Shown: piece by piece, positions 5,023 through 7,301 of the stretch | How positions within the stretch are numbered: position 1 is the stretch's first letter | How the letters are laid out: every line of letters begins with the position of its first letter | Assembly (NCBI GenBank): GCA_031281115.1 | Contig: JAITFV010000328.1 | Span: forward strand, 1-7,332 | Direction: 5' to 3' | From: Oscillospiraceae bacterium | GTDB taxonomy: Bacteria; Bacillota; Clostridia; Oscillospirales; Ruminococcaceae | DNA length: 7,332 nt | The notes under the pieces: generated by a model | The model's input: only the letters and a program-made list of their open reading frames with translations | What the model was told of the DNA's origin: nothing | Databases searched by the model: none | Program-made: the position numbers and the translations under genes

Positions 5023-5586
5023 ATGTTAATTTTAGCGAGTGCGTCACCGCGCAGACGTGAGCTGCTCAAAAGCGCAGGTTATAAATTCAAGATAATCCCC
5101 GCAGAGAGCGAGGAAATTATCCCGGAGGCGAAACCGGAGGAAGCGGCTGTTTTAACCGCGAAAAGCAAAGCGCTTGAAGTTTCGGCAAAACACCCGGATG
5201 ACGTAATCTTAGCCGCAGACACTATATTTTTCATAAGCGGCGAAATCATGAACAAACCTAAAGACGAAGCAGATGCTTTTCGGATGCTGAATATTTTATC
5301 GGGCGCACGACATACAGTGATTACCGCGGTTTGTATAATTTACAAAAATAGAATCCGCTCTTTCTTCGGACGGACATCGGTGGAGTTTTACAAGCTTTCG
5401 GAAGATGATATAGATGCCTACATAAAAACCGGCGAGCCTTTCGATAAAGCGGGAGCCTATGGCATACAGGAAAAAGGCGCACTGCTCGTAAAAGGCATCA
5501 GAGGCGATTTCTACAATGTAATGGGGCTGCCGCTCGCGAGAACGGTGCGGGAACTTAAAAAATTCGGAATAGAACCTGATATATAA
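5023..5586 (+). CDS. maf: Maf family nucleoside triphosphate pyrophosphatase
   Basis: Cytosolic house-cleaning enzyme that hydrolyses nucleoside triphosphates to monophosphate and pyrophosphate. At 187 aa it has the usual family length. Family motifs run in order: SASPRRRELL (6-15), AADT with Asp66 aligning with the proposed general base, NKP with Lys78 (77-79), LSGARH (92-97), then TGEPFDKAGAYGIQ (136-149) with Gln149, and GDFYNVMGLPL (161-171). The KAGAYGIQ form is typical of the dTTP/UTP pyrophosphatase (YhdE-like) subgroup rather than the 7-methyl-GTP subgroup; the subgroup call is inference. Start chosen at ATG 5023 because AGGAGA (5015-5020) precedes it and the protein begins directly at the first motif. 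Some Maf proteins are linked to septum or division control. Transcribed from its own promoter at 4956-4984. A hairpin repeat abuts the stop codon. Confidence 0.95.
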   Translation: MLILASASPRRRELLKSAGYKFKIIPAESEEIIPEAKPEEAAVLTAKSKALEVSAKHPDDVILAADTIFFISGEIMNKPKDEADAFRMLNILSGARHTVITAVCIIYKNRIRSFFGRTSVEFYKLSEDDIDAYIKTGEPFDKAGAYGIQEKGALLVKGIRGDFYNVMGLPLARTVRELKKFGIEPDI

Positions 5587-5701
5587 TACTGTTTCTGAAC
5601 AAACAAAGTTTGTTCAGAAACAGGGATTGCGCTGCTGCAACAGTGCCTGCGGCTCGCAAGCCGCGGAACCTGTTATCCATTTCTTAAATGGATAACAGTA
5701 T
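5586..5701. repeat. Hairpin repeat element, copy 1 (four stem-loops, 8-bp terminal inverted repeats)
   Basis: Sits in the 205-nt gap between maf and the next gene and begins on the last base of the maf stop codon. The ends are inverted 8-mers, ATACTGTT (5586-5593) and AACAGTAT (5694-5701). Inside are a perfect 16-bp hairpin with loop AAA (5589-5623), a weaker GC-rich fold (about 5629-5647), GCGGCT-CGCA-AGCCGC (5649-5664), and a perfect 13-bp hairpin with loop CTT (5670-5698). The GC-rich middle (5623-5665) recurs in reverse orientation at 7049-7091. None of the hairpins is followed by a T run on the plus strand, so they are not standard terminators. Likely a REP/MITE-like non-autonomous element or a structured RNA segment; which one is unknown. 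Confidence 0.8.
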
Positions 5702-5777
5702 GAATACAGGTTCTAAAAGTCTAATAGGCAATTTATTCAAAAGTTAGTGGAAATGTCTGACAAATTCTATAAAATTG

Positions 5778-5785
5778 AAGAGGTG
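5778..5785 (+). promoter_or_regulatory. Ribosome binding site deciding the start at 5792
   Basis: AAGAGGTG lies six bases before ATG 5792. The upstream in-frame ATG at 5747 has only a poor AGTGGA-like sequence ahead of it, so the internal ATG is preferred. Confidence 0.65.
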
Positions 5786-5791
5786 CAAAAA

Positions 5792-6214
5792 ATGTTTGGA
5801 TTATTTAAGAGAAAGAAGAAGCTTGATTTGGGGTATGAGGAGCAGCCGCAAATACAAGTGCAGGAAGAAAACAGCGCGCCGTATTATCGCGAAATAGAAA
5901 AAAGCGGTTACTTTTTGAATGAGAAGGACATAAAAGTAATTGTGAAAGCATGCGTTTTCTTCGCGAAAAACGGCGACGGTTACGGCGATGTTGTTGAAAG
6001 AATCCCTGAAACCGGCGGCAAACTCCGCGATAAAACGGATTTATCGCCTGATGACATAACGGTGATTTCTATTTGCTTGCAAGCTTATAACAACGAGATG
6101 TGTAAATTTATAAGCGAGTACCCCGAATCACCCGATATGTTTAAACTGCGGAGCGAGAAAGTATATTTTCTGACTATAATTGAAAAATTAACGAATTATT
6201 TGACAGTGAGATAA
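5792..6214 (+). CDS. Small cytosolic protein of unknown function
   Basis: I do not recognise this 140-aa protein. From the chosen start it begins MFGLFKRKKKLDLGYEEQP, a short hydrophobic then Lys/Arg-rich start common in small Firmicutes proteins. It continues with a Gln/Glu-rich hydrophilic stretch (about 15-35) and an apparently alpha-helical remainder with alternating hydrophobic and charged residues (IKVIVKACVFFAK; DDITVISICLQAY; VYFLTIIEKLTNYL). There is no signal peptide, no convincing membrane span and no catalytic motif. An alternative start at 5747 would add 15 residues. Codon use resembles the neighbours. It is preceded by the hairpin repeat, and I see no clear promoter in 5702-5777, so it may depend on read-through from maf. 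Its last codons contain the -35 box of the next gene's promoter. It is likely a real gene because of its ribosome binding site and placement. Confidence 0.7.
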   Translation: MFGLFKRKKKLDLGYEEQPQIQVQEENSAPYYREIEKSGYFLNEKDIKVIVKACVFFAKNGDGYGDVVERIPETGGKLRDKTDLSPDDITVISICLQAYNNEMCKFISEYPESPDMFKLRSEKVYFLTIIEKLTNYLTVR

Positions 6215-6228
6215 TTTTATGTTATAAT
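6200..6228 (+). promoter_or_regulatory. Consensus SigA promoter of the lipoprotein gene
   Basis: TTGACA (6200-6205) and TATAAT (6223-6228), both perfect consensus, are separated by 17 bases, with an extended -10 TG at 6220-6221. The -35 lies inside the 3' end of the preceding gene. The predicted start near 6235 gives a leader of about 79 nt. That leader is very AT-rich and holds an 8-bp all-AT inverted repeat (6252-6272, loop CTATA), probably too weak to matter. Confidence 0.9.
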
Positions 6229-6313
6229 GTGTGAGTTATAGTCCTTTAATTTTAAAATTCTATAAATTTTAAGTTAATTGAGTATATTATATTAAAAAAG
6301 GAGTTTTTATCAA

Positions 6314-6916
6314 ATGAAAAAGTTTTGCGTATTACTTATGGCATCAATTATGGTTTTCACTTTCGCGGCTTGCGGCAGCGACCCTGCCGGCGATTTCGTT
6401 AAAACTATAGCGAACGGCAAATTCACCTTTGACATCGAAACGGTTATGGAAGGTGAGAAAATAACAGGATACATGGCAATGGACGGCGACAAAATGGTCG
6501 TAAGAATGGATAGCAATGATGACAGCATTAGAATTATCGCAAGGGACAACAATGTTTACATGATTTTTGACGAGATGGAAGCTTATCTTGAAATGTCTGC
6601 CGATGAAATGGGTATGGAAGATATGTTTTTCGGTGTTGACAGCGGAATTACACCCACAAAATCCGGAGAAGGTTCAGAAAATCTGAATGGAAAATCTACG
6701 GATTACGTTGAATACGACGTTGAAGACGGAGGTTATTTCCGCGTGTTTGTCGAAGACGGCAAGGTAATAGCGTTTACAACTCATGATATGGAAGGTATAA
6801 ACATGTTTGTATCCAATGTGAAAAATACCGCCGTTTCAAGTTTGTTCGACTTGCCCTCCGGTTATGAAGCTTACACGGATATGTTCGAGATGATGATGGA
6901 TATGTATAGTTTCTAA
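6314..6916 (+). CDS. Predicted surface lipoprotein of unknown function
   Basis: 200-aa protein with a lipoprotein signal: Lys2-Lys3, hydrophobic core 4-18, and lipobox FAAC with Cys20 as the lipidation site (start of the mature protein, GSDPAG following). The rest is acidic and appears beta-rich. Paired strands such as GYMAMDGDKMVVRMD, SIRIIARDNNVYMIFDEME and GGYFRVFVEDGKVIAFTTH suggest a LolA/LppX-like or DUF4412-like half-barrel, and the segment FDLPSGYEAY near the end is usual in that kind of fold. The fold call is inference from the pattern; no ligand can be named. The tail (about 189-200) is Met-rich (DMFEMMMDMYSF). AAGGAG (6298-6303) lies ten bases before the ATG. Own perfect promoter and own terminator make it a monocistronic unit, likely well expressed. 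Acts outside the membrane, anchored by lipid. Confidence 0.85.
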   Translation: MKKFCVLLMASIMVFTFAACGSDPAGDFVKTIANGKFTFDIETVMEGEKITGYMAMDGDKMVVRMDSNDDSIRIIARDNNVYMIFDEMEAYLEMSADEMGMEDMFFGVDSGITPTKSGEGSENLNGKSTDYVEYDVEDGGYFRVFVEDGKVIAFTTHDMEGINMFVSNVKNTAVSSLFDLPSGYEAYTDMFEMMMDMYSF

Positions 6917-6929
6917 AAAGTTCCGGTTG

Positions 6930-6957
6930 ACGCCGTCCGAAGGGGCGGCGTTTTTTT
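6930..6957 (+). terminator. Intrinsic terminator after the lipoprotein gene
   Basis: Nine-base-pair GC-rich stem (6930-6938 with 6943-6951, one T-G wobble) around loop GAAG, followed directly by seven T residues (6951-6957). It starts 14 bases after the stop codon and closes the 6200-6957 transcription unit. Confidence 0.93.
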
Positions 6958-6980
6958 GTAAAAAAATTTTCAAAAATCTA

Positions 6981-6997
6981 TTGACTTATTCAGTCAA
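6981..6997. promoter_or_regulatory. Palindromic operator candidate 1
   Basis: 17-bp palindrome TTGAC-TTATTCA-GTCAA centred at 6989, with 7 of 8 position pairs complementary. It covers the whole -35 box and the front of the spacer. Binding here would block RNA polymerase. The TTGACT/AGTCAA half-site style fits TetR/AcrR-family operators; the protein is not seen. Confidence 0.6.
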
Positions 6998-7009
6998 CCG
7001 TGTTATAAT
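6981..7009 (+). promoter_or_regulatory. Strong SigA promoter for the gene starting at 7316
   Basis: TTGACT (6981-6986) and consensus TATAAT (7004-7009), 17 bases apart, with an extended -10 TG at 7001-7002. The predicted transcript start is near 7016, giving a leader of about 300 nt to the start codon at 7316. The -35 is part of a palindrome (see next entry), which suggests control by a repressor. Confidence 0.85.
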
Positions 7010-7012
7010 GAC

Positions 7013-7035
7013 ATTGACCGACTTAGTCAGTCAAT
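7013..7035. promoter_or_regulatory. Palindromic operator candidate 2 over the transcript start
   Basis: 23-bp palindrome centred at 7024, with 10 of 11 position pairs complementary. It shares the half-site CAGTCAA with candidate 1 and begins just after the -10 box. Centre-to-centre spacing is 35 bp. It could be a second repressor site. Alternatively it is the left outer hairpin of repeat copy 2, since copy 1 has a hairpin in the matching place. Confidence 0.6.
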
Positions 7036-7122
7036 CGTTCTGCCGCTTCGCGGCTTGCGAACCGCAGGCGCTGCCGCAGCAGCGCCATCCCAAAAATCCA
7101 ATAGACCAGTTTATTGGATTTT
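7013..7122. repeat. Hairpin repeat element, copy 2, inverted relative to copy 1
   Basis: The core 7049-7091 matches the reverse complement of 5623-5665 at 38 of 43 positions. Around the core are hairpins: the 23-bp palindrome at 7013-7035, GCCGC-TTC-GCGGC (7042-7054), a perfect 8-bp stem GGCGCTGC with loop CGCA (7067-7086), and an 11-bp stem with an 8-nt loop (7093-7122). The outer hairpins share no sequence with those of copy 1, only their position. An 8-nt stretch (7041-7048) is extra relative to copy 1. It lies in the leader of the downstream gene, after its promoter. The left boundary is uncertain. Confidence 0.75.
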
Positions 7123-7133
7123 AGTGTAGCCAG

Positions 7134-7287
7134 TTAAGTTAAAAACACTAAAGCGTTTTTAACCCGCGGCGTATACGCCGCGAACCGCCAAAGGCGGCTT
7201 GACTTGACTGCATAGCTGATTGTCCGTGCTGATGGCACGGAGGCAAGCGCCGCTTGCCGAGAAAACACTTTAGTGTTTTCAATTTAA
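7134..7287. mobile_element. 154-bp MITE-like element with 26-bp terminal inverted repeats
   Basis: The left end (7134-7159) and right end (7262-7287) are inverted copies matching at 23 of 26 bases, with shared inner sequence AAAACACTAAAG. Each outer edge is TTAA, which could be part of the repeat or a target duplication. Each end can itself fold as a hairpin. The interior is a run of palindromes: CGCGGCGTATACGCCGCG (7165-7182), CCGCC-AAA-GGCGG (7185-7197), a 7-bp stem with 5-nt loop (7223-7241) and GGCAAGC-GCC-GCTTGCC (7242-7258). It holds no coding potential. It sits entirely in the 5' leader of the gene starting at 7316 and ends 14 bases before its Shine-Dalgarno sequence. A structured leader RNA is the main alternative. 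Confidence 0.65.
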
Positions 7288-7301
7288 TCAACTATATAAA
7301 C

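Follow-up and report, generated by a model that had tools for sequence, protein, structure and literature searches.

How can two copies of one short core, lying in opposite orientation on the same contig, be bordered by long hairpins that share no sequence? This question is raised by a 7,332-bp stretch of an Oscillospiraceae bacterium (contig JAITFV010000328.1, or C263, analysed whole and hereafter called the window), which belongs to G000, a metagenome-assembled genome (MAG) of 2.18 Mb, 333 contigs and 87% completeness. The two copies, elements 1 and 2, are members of a multi-copy family of four-hairpin elements that measure about 110-140 bp when complete. With a probability of roughly 80%, we read them as non-autonomous elements resembling miniature inverted-repeat transposable elements (MITEs), with palindromic ends and a conserved core through which the ends recombine. 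Their parts in the window are listed below; the module letters are labels coined in this analysis, and HP stands for hairpin.

5587..5700, plus strand: element 1, complete, 114 bp, a hybrid of the type A-core-B with tips TA...TA and a covariance-model match of 107 bits
5589..5623, plus strand: end hairpin A of element 1 (HP1), arms of 16 bp and a loop of 3 nt, abutting the core
5629..5646, plus strand: core hairpin HP2 of element 1
5647..5666, plus strand: core hairpin HP3 of element 1, the compensating hairpin, of the b type as in C-B elements
5670..5698, plus strand: end hairpin B of element 1 (HP4), arms of 13 bp, beginning 4 bases past the core
7049..7124, minus strand: element 2, of the C-core type, truncated, with hairpin C, HP2 and HP3 and without the second end hairpin
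7091..7124, minus strand: end hairpin C of element 2, placed by its fold and its recurrence elsewhere in the genome

The core at 5623-5665 and the reverse complement of 7049-7091 match at 38 of 43 positions (88% complementarity over 43 nt), which bears out the inverted repeat of the original prediction, and a degenerate pattern of the first core hairpin is found at only these two places of the window (3 matches, one place being matched on both strands; 0.01 expected). Element 1 folds with z = -10.9, and element 2 matches the covariance model with 53 bits over 7016-7126. Long hairpins had been predicted immediately outside both ends of each core. This is correct for element 1, apart from the 4-base gap before its 13-bp hairpin. 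In element 2, the hairpin at 7091-7124 is the element's own, whereas the palindrome at 7013-7035 stands 13 bases from the core and lies within a host promoter/operator. Indeed, the related genome G048 keeps this block upstream of its TetR-family gene without any core, so one of the four hairpins noted at first is foreign to the elements. The hairpins of the two copies are unrelated in sequence, as had been stated, yet every hairpin that belongs to an element recurs elsewhere in the genome. That the two window copies have different end hairpins follows from their types: 5587-5700 is a hybrid of an A-D and a C-B element, and 7049-7124 is a truncated C-B element.

A modular family with a common core

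A complete element is built as TA-[long hairpin]-GGG-[hairpin]-[hairpin]-CCC-[long hairpin]-TA, with the two inner hairpins rich in GC, and measures 114-141 bp including the tips. Comparison of the 114-bp element 1 with its own genome gave 68 matches (several of them being both strands of a single palindrome), many of which comprise one end and the core only; a few end hairpins occur among them in different combinations. In 456 kb we found 330 hairpins with arms of at least 10, of which 122 fall in 11 groups of three or more, and nine of these groups were recognised as modules. These modules were then located in 884 kb, made up of the window plus 37 contigs picked by hits (38 sources in all) and 83 contigs picked regardless of hits. 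The scan yielded 201 chains, 109 of them with at least two modules, including 31 in the 552 kb that had not been chosen by hits. The long end hairpins occur as sets, A-D, C-B and F-I, each at many genome sites, and the chains can be grouped as follows.

C-1-b-B and A-1-d-D subfamilies: 109-110 bp
C-1-B, a shorter form: 92-93 bp
F-1-i-I subfamily: 126-128 bp without the TATA tips
E-e-g-J: a repeat unrelated to the other subfamilies
Hybrids: A-1-b-B (in the window), A-1-B, A-b-B and D-1-i-I

Since the core is common to the subfamilies and the ends are not, the same core accompanied by unrelated hairpins is what the window displays. Each element end is palindromic in itself, and what a left end has in common with a right end is no more than a loose motif, for instance TACYRWWNTCCA or TATARTC..TTTAA (read by eye). 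When the matches to the first core hairpin that lie at least 130 bp from contig ends were gathered with their flanks (65 matches, 32 further ones nearer the ends being left out), an end hairpin was present on both sides in 32, on one side in 16 and on neither in 17. Flanking palindromes are thus common, not universal.

Among contig ends not chosen by hits, 15 of 162 have a module within 60 bp, which is F, I, i or 1 in 12 of the 15; the repeats are likely to break the assembly. A further recurrent palindrome (GTTTGAAAGAAATC...) occurs at L059 14226, L067 3584, L074 742, L076 11607 and other places, and the conserved stretch next to it holds GAGGCACAAA.

Target duplications and sites without the element

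In the A/B/C/D group, a repeated TNA is found just outside the TA...TA tips. Identical 3-mers stand on both sides in 16 of the 22 two-ended elements. TNA is present on both sides of 18 elements, and its variable base agrees in 16 of these 18, where 32% would be expected (P = 1e-6). When all 42 chains are taken, lone modules included, 18 agree at the correct offset, whereas each of the 12 other offsets compared gives 0 or 1. Matching flanks are seen in 15 of 19 non-hybrids and in one of three hybrids. The flanks of element 1, TAA on the left and TGA on the right, are those expected from the recombination of two elements, and a point change would give the same. Lone end-hairpin copies measure 33 bp; four lone B hairpins are bordered by TA left and right, and two of the four have a matching TNA duplication of their own. 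The position of the TNA duplication, outside the end hairpins, indicates that core and palindromes arrive together.

The other groups differ in their flanks. The 12 complete F-I copies all carry TATAGT...ATTATA, beyond which no duplication is seen. An E-J repeat in L064 interrupts a B hairpin where the latter has a TA, and a TA now stands on each side of the repeat. The duplicated target is thus TNA for A/B/C/D and TA for E-J, in keeping with the target duplication of MITEs. B hairpins split by an E-J repeat were seen at L064 780-1000, L194 7160-7364 and L223 2578-2764; the matches of L194 and, in part, of L223 cross the junction into the B remnant, and the two may have been copied together as a nested unit.

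An exact empty site is offered by a gene for a U32 peptidase that contains an A-D element. The corresponding loci of relatives are gapless at the junction in 23 of 23 cases (21 genomes; some loci are paralogues with 37-47% identity), so that exactly 39 codons (114 + 3 bp) have been added to the gene. Its frame is shorter than most of the relatives' frames, and the gene may be decaying. For the window itself, G048 is collinear except for window positions 6203-6955. The distance from the Maf block to the block of the next gene is 65 bp in G048 and 201 bp in the window, and that from the promoter/operator block to the block of the TetR-family gene is 46 bp and 249 bp, respectively. The covariance model has no match in the G048 locus corresponding to the window, and at neither window site does G048 carry a core or an end hairpin, which speaks against the idea that the palindromes were there before the core. 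The reverse case also exists: G048 contains one element matched by the model and one E-J-like repeat that G000 lacks. Since the intergenic sequence has diverged, only the U32 empty site is exact; a comparison of L248 with L075 gave no clear empty site.

Insertions within reading frames

Seven of the 109 multi-module chains lie in frames open for at least 25 codons on both sides, four of them in recognisable genes; the remaining three (two in L084, one in L085) were left out of the gene count. The recognisable genes, which code for a hybrid histidine kinase, a U32 peptidase, an MntP-like pump and MutS2, contain elements of the A-D subfamily only. These in-frame A-D elements are the following.

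L064 8710-8823
L065 4843-4956
L076 12202-12290
L187 2629-2690

The A-D element is read in the same strand and frame in all four genes, and the two intact copies leave three or four of their six frames open. The copies of the MntP and MutS2 genes are truncated A-D elements, and MutS2 aligns over nearly its whole length with a MutS2 of known structure. In-frame insertion with a conserved reading frame, as known from Rickettsia palindromic elements (RPEs), is therefore found in four genes, and exact insertion in one. The peptide encoded by A-D occurs at 14 places of the genome and is interrupted by stops in nine of them. Against 5.8 billion proteins, its region retrieved three proteins, which point to the own genome, in a comparison whose length limits exclude some hosts.

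Structural conservation within the genus

A covariance model built from 20 elements matches 8 of 71 genomes of the genus, the own one included: 46 matches in G000, 29 in G069, 19 in G016, 11 in G070, 4 in G048, 3 each in G043 and G019, and 2 in G010. These counts are lower bounds, since no more than 46 candidates per genome were scored, with stricter filters, and some represent both strands of one place; all 46 scored candidates of G000 matched, so its number is at least 46. A simple DNA comparison with 40 relatives picked up G016 alone, and the covariance model was needed for the other species. Scoring 11 candidates per genome in a further 294 genomes of the order, including at least 8 from the same genus, gave no model match, a weak negative; none was obtained in 41 of 80 named loci either. 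Plasmids and phages compared by blastn, and viral contigs by one exact 22-base pattern, likewise gave no match.

The plan HP1-GGG-HP2-HP3-CCC-HP4 is kept across the eight species, and the ends differ. We distinguished 31 end palindromes, which are 93% paired over ten positions and whose arms are 34% identical on average; when arms are swapped among them (1000 shuffles), 37% of positions pair, 48% at the most. Since the end hairpins were selected as the most palindromic ones available (arms of at least 10 in 34 of 40), this high pairing arises partly by construction and describes the ends rather than tests them. In the core, 93.1% of cells pair in 19 sequences, compared with 84.8% after shuffling (0 of 500 shuffles as high). 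The covariation score is 0.294; shuffling gives 0.144 and reaches the observed value in none of 500 trials, and sliding gives no more than 0.126. The 17 further pair types observed in the core are less striking, being reached by 36 of 500 shuffles. The counts include one misaligned row (G010_a), and the shuffles leave relatedness in. HP2 is nearly constant, and HP3 shows compensatory changes. The suggestion that structure is conserved and sequence free thus holds in so far as the plan persists over eight species with compensation, be it through selection or through self-correction of the palindromes.

The C-B subfamily is found almost unchanged in G070, where three copies are flanked by TAA/TAA, TAA/TAA and TTA/TTA (read by eye). 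In L253 of the same genome (1501-1614), the outer arm of the B hairpin of a C-B element is partly rewritten to C sequence, so that left and right tips now match, possibly an end conversion in progress.

Proposed mobility and alternative explanations

We propose that the elements would be moved by a transposase supplied in trans, whose binding ends are likely carried by the long palindromes. Each end hairpin may consist of a terminal inverted repeat (TIR) followed by its own inverse, in which case it could probably also move alone, and recombination through the shared core would swap ends and may have produced element 1. Members of the IS1031 subgroup of the IS5 family prefer TNA and generate 3-bp direct repeats, as described in PMC12016507. 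Both features are seen in the A/B/C/D group only, for which an IS5/IS1031-like enzyme is the putative mover, proposed on this likeness and with no match of end sequences; another enzyme would serve the TATA-tipped F-I and E-J groups.

Several observations weigh against this reading. An exact 3-mer pair is missing in 6 of the 22 two-ended elements, and one of the three A-B hybrids has equal flanks, the other two being unequal as recombination predicts. No end hairpin accompanies 17 of the 65 core-hairpin matches away from contig ends; 15 of these 17 consist of a solitary 18-base match that has as many as 4 mismatches, and part of them may be due to chance. A further point concerns the mover. 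A search by five Pfam families (two of them in G000 alone) found no transposase with matching ends, in an assembly that is incomplete. G000 has no match to PF01609, PF13586, PF13340 or PF01797, and its sole PF13358 match is a contig-edge fragment whose visible end is, by eye, unlike the elements. In the other carrier genomes, PF01609 is present in two of seven and DUF4096 in G070, G069 and G010, with visible ends that mismatch by eye; no DUF4096-type gene was detected in G000. Only one IS5-type left end was readable, that of G070 (GAACCTATCC), and by eye it does not match the element tips. Nor did long repeats reveal a parent transposon in the 884 kb, where no high-copy repeat is among the 70 listed of at least 180 bp. 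TIR-like ends paired 300-3000 bp apart number 10, 7 and 7 for three motifs in the own and relative loci. Finally, movement is deduced here from the sequence of a fragmented MAG. The PF13358 fragment mentioned above occupies L236 1-310 and comes from an IS630-type (DDE_3) transposase.

Self-correction of palindromes is the alternative that survives best, and it could operate as a sub-mechanism within the mobile-element reading: template switching during replication would copy one arm of a hairpin to the other, so that ends drift while symmetry stays without selection. The 31 distinct end palindromes fit this, with arms that differ so much and pair so well (picked though they were as palindromes), as does the partly rewritten B hairpin of L253 in our interpretation. 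On the other hand, drift plus correction alone leaves the near constancy of HP2 unexplained. We regard self-correction as possible, with odds somewhat below even.

A structured RNA (an attenuator, terminator or processing signal) selected for its fold, with spread being secondary, appears improbable. It would account for the compensatory changes of HP3 beside a nearly constant HP2 and for the very stable folds, and one window hairpin resembles a terminator on the minus strand (3 found, mean 2.0 in shuffles). However, Rfam gave no match at gathering thresholds, copies also lie within coding genes, the clean insertion and the target duplications mark inserts, and the examined sites are not common to G000 and G048.

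Much less probable still are repetitive extragenic palindromic (REP) sequences mobilised by a RAYT/Y1 (IS200-like) transposase, which the paired, high-copy hairpins might suggest. A 3-bp target duplication, which Y1 transposition is not known to make, is present here, and Y1_Tnp (PF01797) occurs in one of the eight carrier genomes and not in G000. The GTAG or CGTC tag described at the foot of REP stems (PMC3733652) is found at none of 40 end hairpins.

The original prediction also considered, on the layout of the window alone, that the element might seek out palindromes or that insertion might duplicate the flanking DNA in inverted form. Both ideas are refuted for the examined sites and hardly credible elsewhere: the TNA duplication lies outside the palindromes, G048 lacks core and end hairpin at both sites, identical hairpins recur at unrelated sites, and the E-J repeat inside the B hairpin went into an ordinary TA.

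Non-autonomous mobile elements with palindromic ends therefore remain our preferred explanation. Going beyond it, and with more doubt than confidence, we may be dealing with a new architectural class, the compound palindrome. The end hairpin would be the minimal mobile unit; two of them would carry the two-hairpin core as a passenger, and ends would be exchanged like cassettes through this core, the fold being kept while arm sequences turn over between species. The frame-neutral 114 + 3 bp subfamily would then be an RPE-like source of 39 codons outside Rickettsia and Wolbachia.

Comparison with known repeats

The usual MITE is a single long hairpin running from the left to the right TIR, whereas here each end is a full palindrome and a conserved core of two hairpins is added. 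The elements agree with MITEs in being short (<500 bp), lacking a transposase of their own and reaching at least 46 model matches in G000. Like the bacterial MITEs RUP, Correia/NEMIS and ERIC, as characterised in PMC2229807, they stay below 200 bp, encode no protein, end in TA, are flanked by a target duplication, form stable hairpins and occur in many copies. Separate end hairpins are not unheard of, since CIR elements are described in the same review as folding into separate 5' and 3' stem loops.

RPEs, as presented in PMC10969869 and PMC2229807, are likewise palindromic repeats (about 105-150 bp) found in frame in unrelated protein genes, with a conserved peptide. They differ in that the duplication carries a question mark in the review table, as opposed to the TNA duplication found here, and in their hosts, the best named Maf relatives of the present window being Oscillospiraceae MAGs; the likeness meant here is one of behaviour. 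Protein-coding palindromes are cited in PMC2996958 for Rickettsia, Wolbachia and one archaeon. The present family extends in-frame palindromic insertions in conserved proteins beyond these, with an exact empty site, and the element length of 114 + 3 bp leaves the reading frame intact.

The streptococcal BOX repeat is also modular, with end modules boxA and boxC around a middle boxB, and in Streptococcus suis a second end set, boxE and boxF, encloses the same kind of boxB, which comes close to the pattern seen here (PMC3049150). The comparison is one of plan only: boxB is described there in variable tandem number, whereas the middle is single here and each end is a full palindrome. In the literature searched by title and abstract start, which covers few of the subscription papers, we found no description of this family, and this is weak evidence of novelty. 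What emerges is a DNA family, mobile by appearance, whose structure lasts longer than its sequence. The 31 end palindromes distinguished in the eight related genomes make selection and hairpin self-correction testable against each other.

Other features of the window

The elements are accompanied in the window by the following features.

5023..5586, plus strand: Maf-like gene (Pfam PF02545), directly upstream of element 1
6237..6286, plus strand: isolated palindrome similar to an end hairpin of the TA type (TATAGTCC...), right limit placed by eye
6981..7035, plus strand: host promoter with an operator-like palindrome (promoter scan), outside element 2 and upstream of the TetR-family gene
7127..7294, plus strand: TA-tipped repeat of the E-J type with modules E, e, g and J, adjoining element 2 and unrelated to it

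Together, element 2 and the E-J repeat lengthen the leader of the TetR-family gene by about 200 bp relative to G048. The TATAGTCC palindrome at 6237-6286 lies upstream of a lipoprotein-like gene, and a variant of it, followed by the core, occurs in L213 near position 1165.

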